Origin: a virus
Virus record (IMG/VR): IMGVR_UViG_3300021356_000112
Span: 1-30,254 of that record
DNA: 30,254 bases
Direction: 5' to 3' (one strand)
Part shown: piece after piece, positions 4,411 through 15,673 of the stretch
Layout of the letters: every line of letters begins with the position of its first letter
Position numbering within the stretch: position 1 is the first letter of the stretch
Made by a program: the position numbers and the translations under genes
Notes under the pieces: generated by a model
Told to the model about the DNA's origin: nothing
Seen by the model: the letters and a program-made list of their open reading frames with translations, nothing else
Database searches by the model: none

Positions 4411-5130
4411 ATGCCTTTACCAAAAATTGCAGCTCCCACATATGAACTTGAATTACCATCAACTGGGGAGACAATTAAGTATAGACCTTTCCTTGTTAAA
4501 GAGGAAAAACTTCTTGTCATTGCCTTAGAAAGCGAAGAAACAAAACAAATTACTAATGCTATTAAAGCAGTAATTAAAAATTGTATTTTGACTAGAGGTG
4601 TTAAGGTAGAACACTTGCCAACTTTTGATATTGAATATCTCTTCTTGAATATTCGTGGTAAGTCTGTTGGTGAGCAACTTGATGTCAACATTGTTTGTCC
4701 TGATGATGGTGTTACTGAGGTAGCAGTTCAAATTGATTTGGAAGACATTAAAGTAAATCGAAGTGATGATCACACCAATAGAATTAAACTAAATGATGAT
4801 CTCATGTTGGAAATGAATTATCCTTCACTAGATCAATTCATTAAGAACAACTTTGAATTCAGTGAAAAGAATGCCATGGATCAATCATTTGATCTTGTCG
4901 CATCTTGCATGGGTAAAATTTATAATGAAGAGGAAGTTTGGGTTGCTGAAGATTGTAGCAAAAAAGAATTGTCCGATTTCTTGGAGCAGATGAACTCTGC
5001 ACAATTCAAAGAGATTGAAAAATTCTTTGAAACAATGCCTAAACTATCACACTCTATTACTGTAACTAATCCCAAAACAAAAGTAGAGAGTGATGTGCTC
5101 CTGGAGGGACTAGCAAGTTTTTTCGCCTAG
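4411..5130 (+). CDS. 26: gp26-like baseplate hub or tail-assembly protein
   Basis: This 239-residue protein belongs to the T4 gp26-type family (T4: 208 residues), which is needed for baseplate hub assembly. Diagnostic stretches are PTYELELPSTGETIKYRPFL, KEEKLLVIALES, and FDIEYLFLNIRGKSVGE. The first half is beta-rich and the second half helical and acidic. Its start is preceded by late box AATAAATA. The last codons (Ser-Phe-Phe-Ala-stop) contain a run of six T and sit upstream of a hairpin. The -1 frame stays open from there into the gp51-like ORF, so a second, longer product of about 301 residues is likely (see the frameshift site). Position directly before tape-measure-like genes fits a tail-assembly chaperone role. 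Confidence 0.8.
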   Translation: MPLPKIAAPTYELELPSTGETIKYRPFLVKEEKLLVIALESEETKQITNAIKAVIKNCILTRGVKVEHLPTFDIEYLFLNIRGKSVGEQLDVNIVCPDDGVTEVAVQIDLEDIKVNRSDDHTNRIKLNDDLMLEMNYPSLDQFIKNNFEFSEKNAMDQSFDLVASCMGKIYNEEEVWVAEDCSKKELSDFLEQMNSAQFKEIEKFFETMPKLSHSITVTNPKTKVESDVLLEGLASFFA

Positions 5131-5152
5131 CCCTAGTCCACATGGACTTGGG
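5118..5152 (+). promoter_or_regulatory. Predicted programmed -1 ribosomal frameshift site at the gp26/gp51 junction
   Basis: In the gp26 frame the sequence is T TTT TTC (5118-5124), a valid X XXY YYZ slippery heptamer. A 6-nt spacer, GCCTAG, contains the gp26 stop. Then comes a hairpin at 5131-5152: CCC, a T-T mismatch, AGTCC, loop ACAT, GGACT, GGG. The -1 frame is open from here to 5315. The fusion would contain gp26 residues 1-238 followed by 63 residues starting Arg-Leu-Ala-Leu-Val-His. The hairpin also buries the ATG at 5142. Confidence 0.65.
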
Positions 5153-5315
5153 TAGTTATTATAAAATTAATTTTGCTTTGATGCAGTTTCATAAATATAG
5201 TCTAACTGAAATTGAAAATCTCATTCCATGGGAAAGAGACATTTATGTTGGACTGTTACAGCAGCATCTTGAAGAAGAAGAATTAAAACGAAAACAACAA
5301 GCATCTAATGGATGA
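5142..5315 (+). CDS. 51: gp51-like short ORF, probably the frameshift extension of gp26
   Basis: This 57-codon ORF starts MDLGSYYKINFALMQFHKYS and continues with IENLIPWERDIYVGLLQQHL and a charged EEEELKRKQQ tail. The pattern short linker, His-Lys-Tyr-Ser, Leu-Ile-Pro-Trp-Glu-Arg, Tyr-Val, Leu-Leu resembles phage tail-assembly chaperone extensions. The position after gp26 matches T4 gene 51. T4 gp51 is far longer (249 residues), so the symbol rests mostly on gene order. Neither possible ATG (5142, 5181) has a ribosome-binding site, and the first lies in a hairpin. The frame is open upstream through the end of gp26, so it is probably expressed by -1 frameshifting. It overlaps the next gene by 8 nt. 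Confidence 0.6.
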   Translation: MDLGSYYKINFALMQFHKYSLTEIENLIPWERDIYVGLLQQHLEEEELKRKQQASNG

Positions 5316-7497
5316 TACTGTAACCACACCAGTAATAAAATCTACCACAATATCTGCATCTAAGATGATGGGTAGAGAAGTTGATGGTGCATCTGGTTCA
5401 GTTGGAAAAGAATCAAAGATTGGAAAACTATCAAGAATTTTAAGAACCACCCGTATCAAAGTGAACGCGGTGGAGACTCAAGTACAAAATTTTGATAGAA
5501 CAATAAAACTGAACTCAGAGAAGATAACAAGATTAAAAAATATAATTAAGATACAAAAGAGTGATTTAGCAGAAAATTTGAGTAGTCTTGATCAGACTGC
5601 AGAATTTGCTTCTGTTGAGAAAGGTCTTGATGAAATCATTAAGACATTACAAAAGGAAAGAAAAGCAGAAGAAAAAGCAGCAGAGGCGGCAAGGAGAAAG
5701 AAAGAGAGAGATCGTGCCAAGGCCAGAGAAAAGAAATTAGAATCTGGACTAGGGAAGGGAATTAAGAAAGTTGTTGGAACAGTAGTAAAACCATTTAAGA
5801 GTATCTTTGATAAGATATTTGATTTCTTACTTAATGTTCTTGTGGGTAGAACTATTATAAAATTAATTGGTTGGTTTAGCGATGGGAAAAATCAAGAAAA
5901 AATACAGTCATTAATTAGATTCGTTAAAGACTGGTGGCCTGCACTAACTGCTGCTGTTCTTTTATTTGGAACTGGTTTTGGATCATTGGCAGGAGGTCTT
6001 GTAGCATTAGTTGCTGGATTTATTCCAAAATTCTTAGCATTAAGTGTAAAATTAGCAGCAGCTATTGCAAAAAATCCATTTGCTATTGGCACTGCTCTTT
6101 TCCTGGCAGGTGCTGCAGTTCCAGCACTGTTCCCACAAACTGTTGAGGATGAAGCAGATAAGCAAGCAAATAAAGCAGCGGAAGAGAAGGGAAACGAACA
6201 AGCAGCGGCGGACATAAGAGCACAAAATGAAAATAGAAATCCTTTACAACGATTTGGTGATTTTATTACTGGTGCAGGTGCAGAAAGAGAAGAACAAGCA
6301 CAGAGATTAGAGACTGGTGAAGAAAAGAGATATGGATTCTTTGGTGAACTAAATGGTGGGGGAAGAGTTCCAGGTAGAGGTTTGAATAAGGATACTGTCC
6401 CTGCCATGCTTACTCCAGGTGAGTTTGTGATGAGTCGTGGTGCCGTTGATAAATTTGGAGCAGATACTTTAGAATCCATGAATGCCATGGGAGGTGGAAC
6501 AAATATTCCAAAAAGATCCTCCGGAATTACCGATGCATCTGGTGGAGGTATGATTGGTGAAGGTGAACATAGGGAGAAGATGTCTTCCAAACTGGCCAGA
6601 GAGATGGAACAGAGAGATAAAGCAGTTCAAGCACCAGGTGGGATTGATGCAAGACATGCTGAATTGATGAAGACTACCAATCCACAAAAGATTGCTGACT
6701 ATGATTCTAATCATGGTGCTGGAGCATATTCTAAGAAACTTCGTGAGAAACTGACTAAAATTTATGTTACACCTACTCAATCATCAATTGAAAAATCAAT
6801 AGTCCCTACCGGTCAAGTTGTTGGTAGAGAAAATCTCCCTGCTTCTACAGTTAAAGTTCTTGAGAGAATGGACGCACAAAAAGCAGGAAATTTACCGCCA
6901 GATGTAAAAACTACAGGCCCACTCATAGGTAAATTAGTTATGGAATCTGGATCATTTGGACTTCCGCCAGGTGTGTCTGGACTGAGTGGAGGTGGCGGTG
7001 CCACAAATGTTCTAACTGAACAAGCAAAAGTCAGATCTCTTCCTGCCATTCTTGGTGATATATTTGGTGCCTTTAGGAAAAAGGAGATTGATCCGCAGAC
7101 CATTCTTGAGGATGTAAAATCTAAAGCGAAGAACATGGCAACATCTATGGGTGGAACTATTGTTGATAGTAACAGTCAAGAACAAAACATGAAGAGAGTC
7201 ATGGCTCTACCTCCTGAAATGAGGAAGGCAGTTCTTGCAGACATGAAGCGATCTGAGTTGCAACCAAAAATATCTCCCACTCAACCATCCCCTGCCCAAA
7301 TGTCACATGTTCAATCAAGAAAACCTGACATAAAACCACCAGTCAGGCCTGAACCAAAGGTTGAATTTTTACCAATGCCAGCACCAGGTGATTCTTCTGC
7401 ACCAGCAGCACCGACTGGCAGGAACAATATCCCACCATTTAGTGCATCAACTGTAGGGTCGAATTTAAAATCAGAAGTACTGGGGTTAACGCGATAA
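5308..7497 (+). CDS. Tape-measure-like tail protein 1 (gp29 position)
   Basis: This 729-residue protein lies where T4 carries hub and tape-measure genes. Residues 1-150 are helical and highly charged, with a coiled-coil-like Lys/Glu/Ala-rich stretch (120-145). Residues 165-200 (FDFLLNVLVGRTIIKLIGWF) and 210-278 are hydrophobic and could form membrane-interacting segments, as in many tape measures. Residues 352-396 contain the tape-measure signature VPGRGLNKDTVPAMLTPGEFVMSRGAV (read here in two parts). The rest is polar and Pro/Gly-rich. The protein shares the FLxNVLxG hydrophobic module with the next ORF, so the two are likely paralogues. By analogy with T4 gp29 it may set tail length. It ends TAA directly before an in-frame ATG. 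Confidence 0.7.
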   Translation: MDDTVTTPVIKSTTISASKMMGREVDGASGSVGKESKIGKLSRILRTTRIKVNAVETQVQNFDRTIKLNSEKITRLKNIIKIQKSDLAENLSSLDQTAEFASVEKGLDEIIKTLQKERKAEEKAAEAARRKKERDRAKAREKKLESGLGKGIKKVVGTVVKPFKSIFDKIFDFLLNVLVGRTIIKLIGWFSDGKNQEKIQSLIRFVKDWWPALTAAVLLFGTGFGSLAGGLVALVAGFIPKFLALSVKLAAAIAKNPFAIGTALFLAGAAVPALFPQTVEDEADKQANKAAEEKGNEQAAADIRAQNENRNPLQRFGDFITGAGAEREEQAQRLETGEEKRYGFFGELNGGGRVPGRGLNKDTVPAMLTPGEFVMSRGAVDKFGADTLESMNAMGGGTNIPKRSSGITDASGGGMIGEGEHREKMSSKLAREMEQRDKAVQAPGGIDARHAELMKTTNPQKIADYDSNHGAGAYSKKLREKLTKIYVTPTQSSIEKSIVPTGQVVGRENLPASTVKVLERMDAQKAGNLPPDVKTTGPLIGKLVMESGSFGLPPGVSGLSGGGGATNVLTEQAKVRSLPAILGDIFGAFRKKEIDPQTILEDVKSKAKNMATSMGGTIVDSNSQEQNMKRVMALPPEMRKAVLADMKRSELQPKISPTQPSPAQMSHVQSRKPDIKPPVRPEPKVEFLPMPAPGDSSAPAAPTGRNNIPPFSASTVGSNLKSEVLGLTR

Positions 7498-9828
7498 ATG
7501 GCAATTACTGCAGAAAAATTTCTACCCACCTCTAATACATCCACAGTTCCAAAAGGAACAAAGTTCAGGATGAAAACTATTAAGGTGAAAATTGATAAAA
7601 TCAATGACATCTTAAAGGGAACACTAGCTGCTGAAAAGAAACAGAAGGATGATGAAAGAAAAACAACCGAAAAAGAAACTTCAACTAAAGCAGAGAATGA
7701 ATTAGAGAAGGAGCAAAAGAAAGTTTCTAAGTTTAAACTTCCTGCTCCCCTCAAAAAGTTGAACCCCATAGATAGGATTAAAAATTTCCTATTTAATGTT
7801 CTTGGTGGATATATTGCTGTAAGGTTAATTAAACATCTTCCGATGCTAGAGGCATTGATTCCTAAGATAAAGGCAGCAATAGATTTTATTGAGGATTGGG
7901 GTGGAAAAATATTTAATGGTCTTGTCACTCTTGTGGACAAGGGGTATGAAATGTATGATGGGCTTAGGGGTAAAGTTGAGGAGTATTTTGGTGAAGATGG
8001 TGTCAAAAAATTTGACGAGATTTCTGGAGTTCTAAACAAAGTTCTTAATGGGGTGCTCATAGCATCAATGGTTGGTTTGAAAGCGGCTCAGTTCATGCCG
8101 AAAAAACCACCTGCTGTCAGACCTCCTGGTGGTGTACCAAAAGGAACAAGACCTGGTGCAGTTAGAAGATATGCTCAACGCTTTGGAAGAGATGCTGCAA
8201 TAAGGAGATTTGGTAAAGATGCAGTAACAAGATTTGGTGGAAGTGCTGGTAGATCCACTGCCACTAGTCTTGCTAGAAGAGGTGTAGTTGGAGCATTGGG
8301 AAAGGGAGGAACAAGAGCATCCCTGAGATTTGTTAAAAACTTCATTCAACCGATTGTCAAAAAGATACCTCTTATTGGTGGACTGATTGATTTTGCTTTA
8401 AATTATTTTGTCTTTAAAGAACCAATTGGCAGGGCTGCTTTTGCTGCCATTGGTGCTACGGTTTTTGGAGCTCTTGGTGCTACTGCAGGATCTATCATTC
8501 CAGTTGCTGGAAACTTCGTTGGTGGTATTTTGGGTGGTCTTGCTGGCGACTTTGCAGGTAAATGGTTATATGATACATTCTTCTCTGGCAAGAAACCTGT
8601 TAAAGTTCCAGAGAGTGATGATGATCAATTAGAAACCACTGTCCCTCAAACAGAAGTCTCTGGCGCACAAGAGATGGATTTGCTGAAGAGACTTGTTGCT
8701 GCTGAGTCTGAGAGTGAAGGTTTACTTGGTATGGCACTTGTTGCTCGTTCAGTCTTGAATCGTGCTGGATTAATACAATCAGGTAAAGCATCAACTGGAA
8801 CATTCCTTGCTAAAGATGATACGGTGACAGGTGTTATTATGGGAAGAAATCAATATCAACCAATATCAGATGGAAGAATTAATAATAATTTTGGCGATGT
8901 AACATTAGAAACTGCTGAAAAAGCAATTGAATTGGCTCAAGATATTAATAGGTTAAAACAAACTTTAAAGTCTGAGGGATTTAATGACAGCGATATATCC
9001 AAACTTTTAGCAGCAACAGGATTCAGAACAGGATCTGCATTTAATGACCCTTCCCAGAATGTTAATGTAGTTAAATTTAAGAATCACTACTTCAATACCG
9101 CAGGGAACTCTCAGTTAAAAATTGCACCAGCAAATGTTGATACTTCTATATCAGCACCAGCAGCGAATGTAGATATAAGCACTGTATCAGGAGATTCTAG
9201 AGCGGATAGTGAAGGTTCAAAAATTGCTGGTAATCTTGGTAGATTCTTATATAAAGAATTAAATTCTCCTAGAGATTTCCAAGCAGTTACTGAGCACCCA
9301 GATTTTGGTGGATCATTTAGAAGATCCTATGATTCTTATCACAATTATGATCGTGCTATTGATATTGGAGTATACCCTCATGAGCAACCAAAAATTTTAG
9401 AGGCAATAAAGAAATTCAATCGGTTAAATGAAGTTAGTCCTGCTGAATTACTTCATGCTGGAAATGATCCTAAAGGTGACCATGATGACCATGTTCACAT
9501 TGCATATAGAAAAGGTGGTGTGACATTGGGCAAATCACACCTGGCAACTCTTGGTGAAGAGGGTCCTGAAATTGTTATTGATGCTGATAGTATGGGCCCC
9601 GCAAAAGATATGTTGCTGGCAATCAACCAAGCTAGTACATATGATGGAGTCATGGAAGCAATTCAAGAATATGCTCCTTATGATGCGATGGCACCACAAA
9701 TGGTTATGGTTCCGCCACCACCACAAGGACAATATGGTGGAGGTCAAACTCAGAAGACAGTTGCTGTTCCAATTCCAGATTCTGAAAGATCTTCTAGTCA
9801 ATTTGATCTTTTATATCAGGGTGCGTAA
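7498..9828 (+). CDS. Tape-measure-like tail protein 2 with two predicted cell-wall-degrading domains
   Basis: This 776-residue protein has a charged helical N-terminus and a hydrophobic module at residues 95-130 (FLFNVLGGYIAVRLI) like that of its upstream neighbour. A long Gly/Ala-rich hydrophobic segment follows near 290-360. Residues 392-530 look like a SleB-type cell-wall hydrolase (Hydrolase_2): LLKRLVAAESESEG with Glu403, ALVARSVLNRA, then NQYQPISDG. Residues 570-670 resemble an M15-type peptidase: SYHNYDRAIDIG with His615 and Asp622, and HDDHVHIAY with His665 and His667 as zinc ligands. The C-terminus (GGVTLGKSHLATLGEEGPEI) is typical of tape measures. It could open peptidoglycan during DNA injection. 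It starts immediately after the upstream stop. Confidence 0.7.
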   Translation: MAITAEKFLPTSNTSTVPKGTKFRMKTIKVKIDKINDILKGTLAAEKKQKDDERKTTEKETSTKAENELEKEQKKVSKFKLPAPLKKLNPIDRIKNFLFNVLGGYIAVRLIKHLPMLEALIPKIKAAIDFIEDWGGKIFNGLVTLVDKGYEMYDGLRGKVEEYFGEDGVKKFDEISGVLNKVLNGVLIASMVGLKAAQFMPKKPPAVRPPGGVPKGTRPGAVRRYAQRFGRDAAIRRFGKDAVTRFGGSAGRSTATSLARRGVVGALGKGGTRASLRFVKNFIQPIVKKIPLIGGLIDFALNYFVFKEPIGRAAFAAIGATVFGALGATAGSIIPVAGNFVGGILGGLAGDFAGKWLYDTFFSGKKPVKVPESDDDQLETTVPQTEVSGAQEMDLLKRLVAAESESEGLLGMALVARSVLNRAGLIQSGKASTGTFLAKDDTVTGVIMGRNQYQPISDGRINNNFGDVTLETAEKAIELAQDINRLKQTLKSEGFNDSDISKLLAATGFRTGSAFNDPSQNVNVVKFKNHYFNTAGNSQLKIAPANVDTSISAPAANVDISTVSGDSRADSEGSKIAGNLGRFLYKELNSPRDFQAVTEHPDFGGSFRRSYDSYHNYDRAIDIGVYPHEQPKILEAIKKFNRLNEVSPAELLHAGNDPKGDHDDHVHIAYRKGGVTLGKSHLATLGEEGPEIVIDADSMGPAKDMLLAINQASTYDGVMEAIQEYAPYDAMAPQMVMVPPPPQGQYGGGQTQKTVAVPIPDSERSSSQFDLLYQGA

Positions 9829-9851: not shown

Positions 9852-11165
9852 ATGGCAAATTCAACATCTAAACAAGCAGTTCCAGCTACAGTATCTAAGT
9901 TAAAAATAACTTCTAATAAGGAGAAAGGTAAGACTGTCAATTTAATTGATGGATTAGTTCGCCTCATGTATTATGAAAGCATTTTACAAGATACAATTAG
10001 ATCTGAAATAGTCTTTGCTGATACGGGAAACTCTATAGATGAAAAGTCTGTGCTAGAAGGCCTTCCTATAGTAGGGACGGAAGATGTTGAGTTAGAATTT
10101 AAAGACAATAATGATACAACAATTAAGATAGATCTAAATGTAAACAAAGTCAGTCAGGTAAACGAAGAATCTACTGCATCCATGATAAAATTGGATCTGG
10201 TTTCAGAAGAATTTTTAAGAAATGAAGGTGGAACTTCGAGACTTAATGTAAGATTTGATGGGAAAATTTCTGACCACATAAGAAGAATCTTAACTGATTT
10301 TTTAAAAACGGAGAAAACATTAGATATTGAAGAGACCAGTAACAATTATAATTTCATAGGAAACAATCGCAAGCCGTACTATGTGATGAACTGGTTGTCT
10401 AAGGCATCGATACCCACAGTTGCTGGAGAGAAAGGAAAGACTGGTGGGTTTTTCTTGTTTGAAACCTCAGAGGGATTTAAATTTAAATCTATTGATGGAC
10501 TTTTTAAACAAAAGCAGAAAAAGTCTCTGATTTATAATTTGACAACGAACTTACCGGCAGGGTATGATACTAAGGTATTGGATTATCAAGGAGACAACCG
10601 CGTACAATCTCAAGAAAAATTTAAGATGGGTGCATACGGAACACGATTAGTTGTGTTCGATCCATTCAATTGTTTCTATGAGGTTATAGAACAAACAGCA
10701 AATGACTCAAAGGATGGCACAGAGTTAGCTGCAAAAGAGTTGCCAAAGTTAAATGATAAGTTTGAATCCGACAGTAAATTTACACGGACAACTTATAAAC
10801 TCATTGATACTGGAACTCTCCCTACAGGGACAACGCAGCAGCAAATTGATAAGTCAACAGAGCAAAATTTTGAACTGCAACAAGTATTGAATCAGACCAT
10901 TCGTAGATACAATCAATTGTTTACTGGAATGCAAACTGTTACTATTCCAGGTGATTTCAGTTTACATGCAGGAGATGTCGTATTTCTTGATACTCCTAGT
11001 CTTAGAGCAGAAAAAGGAGATAAATTGAACAAGGAATATGGTGGTCTATATATTATAGCTGATTTGTGTCATTACATATCATCCGAAGAGACCTATACTA
11101 AACTAAATCTTGTACGAGATTCCTTCGGAAGAAAAGGAAACCACACTACTAACATCCCATTATGA
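9852..11165 (+). CDS. 27: gp27-like baseplate hub protein
   Basis: This 437-residue protein is assigned as gp27, the trimeric hub ring that holds gp5 in T4 (391 residues). Supporting features are the beta-rich N-terminal half with VNLIDGLVRLMYYESILQDT, LEGLPIVGTEDVELEF, a second domain near 280-437 including FSLHAGDVVFLDTPSL, and the C-terminal GGLYIIADLCHYISSEETYT followed by TKLNLVRDS. The gene lies between the tape-measure-like genes and gp5, as expected for hub genes. A ribosome-binding site (AAGAGG) precedes the start. Its stop overlaps the next start by 4 nt (ATGA). Confidence 0.75.
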   Translation: MANSTSKQAVPATVSKLKITSNKEKGKTVNLIDGLVRLMYYESILQDTIRSEIVFADTGNSIDEKSVLEGLPIVGTEDVELEFKDNNDTTIKIDLNVNKVSQVNEESTASMIKLDLVSEEFLRNEGGTSRLNVRFDGKISDHIRRILTDFLKTEKTLDIEETSNNYNFIGNNRKPYYVMNWLSKASIPTVAGEKGKTGGFFLFETSEGFKFKSIDGLFKQKQKKSLIYNLTTNLPAGYDTKVLDYQGDNRVQSQEKFKMGAYGTRLVVFDPFNCFYEVIEQTANDSKDGTELAAKELPKLNDKFESDSKFTRTTYKLIDTGTLPTGTTQQQIDKSTEQNFELQQVLNQTIRRYNQLFTGMQTVTIPGDFSLHAGDVVFLDTPSLRAEKGDKLNKEYGGLYIIADLCHYISSEETYTKLNLVRDSFGRKGNHTTNIPL

Positions 11166-11383
11166 GCGAAGAAAAAAGTATTCAGCAACACATCAACGAC
11201 GACAAAGATCTATTAGAGAATTCTACTTTGTCTCCTCAGATGCGTCGTCACATAACGGACGAACTAGATCACCTTGAGAAATATCAGGCAGCACACCCTG
11301 ATGAGGATCACGATCCAACAGCATTTGAAATGTACTGTGATGAGAACCCAGAAGCAGACGAATGTAGGATTTACGAGGATTGA
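11162..11383 (+). CDS. Small acidic protein of unknown function
   Basis: This 73-residue, strongly acidic protein begins MSEEKSIQQHINDDKDLLEN and contains many Asp, Glu and His residues plus two Cys near the end (MYCDENPEADECRIYED). The first 45 residues look helical (TLSPQMRRHITDELDHLEKY). It is coupled at both ends: its start overlaps the gp27 stop by 4 nt and its stop overlaps the gp5 start by one base (TGATG). That tight placement between the two hub genes suggests a chaperone or small hub partner, but there is no recognisable family. Confidence 0.75.
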   Translation: MSEEKSIQQHINDDKDLLENSTLSPQMRRHITDELDHLEKYQAAHPDEDHDPTAFEMYCDENPEADECRIYED

Positions 11384-15130: not shown

Positions 15131-15673
15131 ATGGCGGAAAAGAAGAATTTTTGGACTCAAGTAATTGGAGCGATGAATGGTTCGATCTCTTTTGGAGGTC
15201 TCACCAAGGATAAGGCGGTAACTTCTAGTGTTGAGATTCAAGGTCTTGATGGCAGACACTTTATAGATTTAACCGAAGATGGTGTGCGTGAAGGATGGAC
15301 TACAGTAAATGCTCCTGGAGCAGTTAATATTAATGCAGGAGAGGATTTATCAAAAGGTCAGAATGGGATCTTTTTAAATTCAGAAAATGGTGATATAATT
15401 ATTAGGGCTAGAGATGGAAAAGTTCGTATTGAGGGAACTGATGTAGAAATATGTGCTCAAGGAAAGGATCCTGAGGGTAATTTCTGGGTTAGTTCCAATC
15501 AAAGTGCTAAGATTGATTCAAAAAATATTACTCTCGATGCAAAACAGTCATTAAAACTACTTTCAACTGGTTTTATGACAATAAATGGAAAGTTGGGCAC
15601 TCAAATTTTATCTTCCATAATTCATGGAGTATCTTGTGCAACAAATCCAGACAAAAAACCAGGTCAAATATAA
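15131..15673 (+). CDS. Beta-helix spike-like protein (gp5 C-terminal-domain-like)
   Basis: This 180-residue protein has the repeating strand-turn pattern of the triple-stranded beta-helix that forms the T4 gp5 C-terminus and VgrG needles: GIFLNSENGDIIIRARDGKV, then RIEGTDVEICAQG, SAKIDSKNITLDAKQSLKLL and TGFMTINGKL. The first 60 residues (FWTQVIGAMNGSISFGG, VEIQGLDGRHFIDLTEDG) may dock it on the hub. Together with the gp5-like protein lacking a helix, this suggests a spike split into two genes. The next gene may provide the tip. I see no catalytic motif. It is driven by its own late box. Confidence 0.65.
   Translation: MAEKKNFWTQVIGAMNGSISFGGLTKDKAVTSSVEIQGLDGRHFIDLTEDGVREGWTTVNAPGAVNINAGEDLSKGQNGIFLNSENGDIIIRARDGKVRIEGTDVEICAQGKDPEGNFWVSSNQSAKIDSKNITLDAKQSLKLLSTGFMTINGKLGTQILSSIIHGVSCATNPDKKPGQI

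Follow-up and report, generated by a model that had tools for sequence, protein, structure and literature searches.

The gp26 and gp51-like open reading frames (ORFs) of T4-like cyanophages raise a simple question: are they two genes, or a single gene whose two products differ by a -1 frameshift? We addressed it in a stretch of 30,254 nt, one strand, from IMG/VR record IMGVR_UViG_3300021356_000112 (hereafter the window, i.e. the whole stretch of DNA analysed), which, among named phages, is closest to cyanophages such as Bellamy and SynMITS9220M01. We consider it very probable that the locus encodes the tail assembly chaperone (TAC) of a T4-like cyanophage and that the short and long forms of this protein are produced through a -1 frameshift.

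The end of gp26 and its surroundings

In the window, the 3' end of gp26 reads AGT TTT TTC GCC TAG. As a preliminary description of this DNA had it, the heptamer T TTT TTC lies in the gp26 frame at 5118-5124, a 6-nt spacer (5125-5130) containing the gp26 stop codon follows it, and the -1 frame is fully open until a TGA at 5313-5315 (64 codons counted from 5121): the sequence observation of a frameshift-type junction at the end of gp26 is confirmed. The fusion of gp26 with the -1 extension is predicted to be a 301-aa TAC-NC protein. The heptamer is more than a chance occurrence, since, across the window's genes (9,095 codon positions), no other T TTT TTC is in frame and no other in-frame slippery heptamer is located at most 15 nt from a gene end. 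An in-frame A AAA AAT is present inside another ORF (15131-15673), 151 nt before the end of that ORF; the -1 frame is open there for 59 codons, probably by chance.

The position of the putative chaperone gene directly upstream of a tape-measure gene was likewise borne out: the ORF at 5308-7497 adjoins it, albeit with a weak profile match, and in phages HTVC008M and phiM12 the tape-measure annotation is carried by a nearby downstream ORF. Two consecutive large ORFs, tape-measure-like or tail-lysin-like, follow the chaperone gene (5308-7497 and 7498-9828). Further downstream, between a tail protein gene and a gp5-like hub/lysozyme gene, lies an ORF with a CP12 domain (11162-11383; 8.3e-15), a gene of the auxiliary metabolic type.

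Table 1. Features of the gp26 locus in the window
Feature	Position	Strand	Basis or remark
gp26, short tail assembly chaperone form (TAC-N)	4411..5130	+	239 aa; PF12322, phrog_150
Shine-Dalgarno-like GGAGG, predicted stimulator	5103..5107	+	exactly 10 nt upstream of the heptamer
Slippery heptamer T TTT TTC	5118..5124	+	gp26 frame; P-site TTT, A-site TTC
-1 frame extension (gp51-like ORF)	5124..5315	+	phrog_634, phrog_150, alignment with the T4 gp51 C-terminus
gp26 stop TAG, bypassed by the predicted -1 shift	5128..5130	+	window sequence
Stimulatory stem-loop, predicted	5130..5153	+	folding energy, synonymous-shuffle z, covariation
Parts of the stem-loop	outer 5130-5133/5150-5153; inner 5135-5139/5144-5148; loop 5140-5143	+	
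Tape-measure-like ORF	5308..7497	+	start overlaps the end of the extension; phrog tape-measure match weak (1.9e-7)
Second large tail ORF	7498..9828	+	Hydrolase_2-like and endolysin-like segments (profile search)

Conservation of the slip site and of the flanking elements

Relatives of the locus were gathered in a close set, made up of 80 IMG/VR loci and P-SSM2 (81 loci), and a wider set of 194 loci, which takes in Kyanoviridae, a Pelagibacter phage, Sinorhizobium and Rhizobium phages, Schizotequatrovirus, Emmerichvirinae and others (gp26 of Aeromonas phage 65, used as a scan query, gave five loci only). Codon, hairpin and Shine-Dalgarno (SD)-like statistics were obtained from 141 dereplicated relatives. 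The heptamer and an open -1 frame are present in all 81 close loci; in the wider set the heptamer is present in 191 of 194 loci (T TTT TTC in 175, T TTT TTT in 15 and T TTT TTG in 1), and none of these 191 contains a -1-frame stop between the two ORFs, bearing in mind that the loci are related and not independent samples, so that the counts overstate independence. Among the exceptions, one locus (L102) carries a single nonsense codon within gp26 and has an intact slip site, and two phages, K444 (L090) and Kuja (L093), have CTT TTT in place of T TTT TTC and retain an open, homologous -1 extension. Kuja belongs to the Ackermannviridae, and the CTT TTT of these two phages is possibly a tetramer-type slip site. 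None of the phage records examined carries a joined gp26-gp51 coding sequence (CDS).

The alignment of relatives that had been proposed as a check shows that the heptamer, the spacing and the open -1 frame are kept while nearby synonymous bases vary. Indeed, third-base entropy in the gp26 alignment (141 dereplicated loci) is lowest at the three slip codons, the start codon excepted. The codon preceding TTT varies (AGT, TCT, AAT, GAT, GGT, GCT and others) and ends in T in 140 of 140 sequences, to be compared with a background of 59% T-ending codons among the serine codons found elsewhere. The P-site codon is TTT in 140 of 140 sequences and the A-site codon is TTC in 132 of 140, even though Phe is more often encoded by TTT elsewhere (69%).

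The GGAGG at 5103-5107 is an addition to the features listed in the preliminary description. GAGG occurs at precisely this 10-nt distance from the heptamer in 90 of the 141 relatives (GGAGG in 42), and the Glu codon at that spot is GAG in 90 of 118 cases, versus 31% elsewhere (Fisher, 3e-23): the element is maintained through codon choice. In a published study, SD-like stimulators were sought 6-17 nt upstream of the motif, and stimulatory structures were stated to begin generally 5-8 nt downstream of it (PMC4066793).

Downstream of the heptamer, a hairpin of 3+5 bp had been proposed to bury the first ATG of the downstream ORF. Such a hairpin is present in the window (folding energy of -14.3 kcal/mol) and does cover the first downstream ATG, located at 5142-5144 within the loop and stem, but its outer 3-4 bp are not conserved in relatives. 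Covariation of the inner 5-bp stem is seen in an alignment of 78 sequences (e.g. GC in 26, AU in 19 and GU in 18 at one pair); pairing is poorer in the outer part, and the two outermost pairs mostly fail. We therefore rejected the full 3+5 bp hairpin as a family-wide feature, the inner 5-bp stem alone being broadly conserved. When the 35-nt stretch beginning with the stop codon was compared with synonymously recoded versions, the mean folding energy of the family was -7.7 kcal/mol, versus -3.5 kcal/mol in the recodings (mean z of -1.81, versus +0.09 for a control stretch); about half of the relatives have no hairpin that is individually significant. The window displays the elements of a dnaX-type site, namely an SD-like element about 10 nt upstream, a heptamer and a downstream hairpin, and GGAGG, heptamer and hairpin would together constitute a dnaX-like three-part signal, in which stimulation by the flanking elements is predicted.

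Relation to T4 gp26 and gp51, and other explanations

In profile searches, the gp26 of the window matches PF12322 (5.8e-74) and positions 5-232 of the 282 positions of phrog_150 (4e-78). For the -1 ORF, the matches are phrog_634, "baseplate hub assembly catalyst" (1.2e-29), and again phrog_150, at positions 232-281: the family profile itself therefore crosses the junction. In T4, PF12322 matches both gp26 (8.8e-64) and gp51 (3.9e-52); T4 gp51 covers positions 13-280 of phrog_150 and matches phrog_634 as well, whereas T4 gp26 stops at position 235. In the alignment, the slip site marks the end of T4 gp26, and T4 gp51, which is one continuous protein across both parts, extends beyond it into a region homologous to the -1 extension. 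In T4 and several relatives, genes 26 and 51 are adjacent and divergent, and in an unrooted tree the 26s form one group and the 51s another. By these comparisons, gp26 and gp51 of T4 are paralogues, and T4 has a separate gene for each of the two forms, short and long. According to Sullivan et al. (2010; PMC3037559), the cyanophage gp51 is about 20% as long as is usual and is devoid of the first ~200 aa; it appeared truncated because the missing part is gp26, to which it would be joined by the predicted frameshifting.

We also examined an AlphaFold2 model of gp26, built on 55 sequences (pLDDT 87). A plain Foldseek search of the PDB with this model gave no match at E<=0.001, and a profile sequence search of the PDB with gp26 gave nothing relevant; TACs were raised by a second-look structure aligner only, whose top matches were 3fgx (Z 8.0), the HK97 TAC 2ob9 (Z 8.0) and YqbN 3klu (Z 7.3), the matches next in rank having Z values of 4.8 and 4.1. 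The TAC matches span residues 1-96 of gp26 (about 85 residues), with middling Z values. Among the top three structures, 2ob9 alone is titled tail assembly chaperone; YqbN and 3fgx are tail-chaperone-type prophage proteins. From this model, gp26 is predicted to fold like known TACs. The fourth match, 5ir0 (ORF19; Z 4.8, gp26 residues 6-90), is a protein of a Vibrio cholerae PICI-like element and may be a satellite chaperone-like protein. Both the homology with the T4 gp51 C-terminus and the prediction of a TAC-like fold for gp26 support the proposal that the "gp51" ORF is the T-like extension of gp26.

Were gp51 a separate gene, it would be translated by coupling or by re-initiation at an ATG just past the gp26 stop codon; many relatives do have an in-frame ATG 5 or 14 nt past this stop, and most depositors have annotated two CDSs. 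However, an SD-like tetramer before the first -1-frame ATG is absent in 135 of 140 relatives (a 4-base match being found in only 5), in agreement with the earlier claim that the downstream ORF has no ribosome site; nor was there any sign of a well-translated independent start. Moreover, the first -1-frame ATG lies more than 40 nt past the gp26 stop in 30 of 141 relatives, in which the upstream -1 codons are still conserved; throughout the 141 relatives, the peptide F-R-[ILV]-[AGS]-[ML]... encoded in the -1 frame is conserved ahead of any ATG. We rejected independent translation of gp51 because the SD sequence is lacking and conservation reaches upstream of the ATG. Since re-initiation also leaves the third-base constraint on the slip codons unexplained, and T4 gp51 is continuous over both parts, we regard two separate genes as very unlikely.

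A -1 product could also originate from transcriptional, rather than ribosomal, slippage on the T run, which comprises six T, and seven or eight in a few relatives. Yet the run is held at six T in 134 of 141 relatives, the X XXY YYZ register is invariant, and the SD-like element and the hairpin stand at ribosomal spacings, which makes transcriptional slippage even less likely than separate genes. Least probable of all is that the heptamer has been kept only for the sake of conserved residues in the two overlapping frames (SFF in gp26, F-R in the -1 frame). The Phe-Phe pair does show almost no variation, and the -1-frame Arg also depends on the C of TTC, but the T that precedes TTT is the third base of a changing codon, and such a coding constraint presupposes translation of the -1 frame at the slip site.

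Proposed mechanism and comparison with known systems

In the -1 frameshifting that we favour, most ribosomes would stop at 5130 and release the short form, gp26. A fraction of them would slip from TTT-TTC to TTT-TTT at 5118-5124, aided by the upstream SD-like GGAGG and the downstream stem-loop, and would read the -1 frame to 5315, thereby making the 301-aa long form, whose C-terminal part is what has been annotated as the gp51 ORF. If lambda G/GT is taken as a guide, the short form would coat the tape-measure protein encoded just downstream, and the extension would recruit tail-tube or hub components. T4 makes the same two forms from the paralogous genes 26 and 51. We put forward, tentatively, that marine T4-like phages set the ratio of short to long chaperone by a conserved dnaX-type signal, at a rate that is maybe well above that of lambda G/GT (a few percent), whereas the T4 lineage would rely on separately expressed genes 26 and 51.

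On the frameshifting reading of the locus, the essential T4 hub protein gp51, whose function has been described as unknown (PMC3004832), can be read as the long chaperone form, and gp26 and the gp51-like ORF should count as one gene with two products. The preliminary description held that a shared chaperone strategy would change how gp26 and gp51 are read, but T4-like chaperones were known before: as cited in the PRFect paper (PMC10885494) and the phage Adele paper (PMC12846349), Vladimirov et al. (2022, Virology 566:9-15) had already identified T4-like TACs, some T4-like phages having separate short and long TAC genes, as well as poly-T slippery signals in T4-like TAC-N genes. The core idea is not new, since both the T4-like TACs and the poly-T signals have been reported; the locus is a well-supported example of a frameshift trick already known in tailed phages, T4-like ones included. 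No description of an SD-like element and a covarying stem at the gp26 locus was found in the literature searched, which covered Vladimirov et al. (2022) through the papers citing that study.

The window resembles several known systems to different extents. T4 gp26 and gp51 belong to the same protein family, T4 gp51 spanning gp26 and the extension, but they are encoded by two divergent genes, with no frameshift, unlike what is predicted for the window. In phage P2, the -1 shift of E/E+E' takes place towards the 3' end of the chaperone gene, which directly precedes the tape measure gene; the lambda G/GT heptamer differs from T TTT TTC. As is predicted for the window, lambda G/GT has its -1 shift close to where the chaperone gene ends, and the tape measure gene follows directly (PMC5009743). 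According to the citing papers, the T4-like TACs of Vladimirov et al. (2022) have short and long forms, as is predicted for the window, and poly-T signals in TAC-N. The TAC locus of Vandenendeviridae and Andersonviridae has a poly-T stretch near the end of TAC-N and a conserved open -1 frame, as in the window, but its motif is GTTTTT and these are other phage families (PMC12846349). Finally, Escherichia coli dnaX displays the same arrangement as the window, i.e. an SD-like element 10 nt upstream, a heptamer and a hairpin about 6 nt downstream (PMC11162774), but with an A AAA AAG heptamer and in an unrelated gene.
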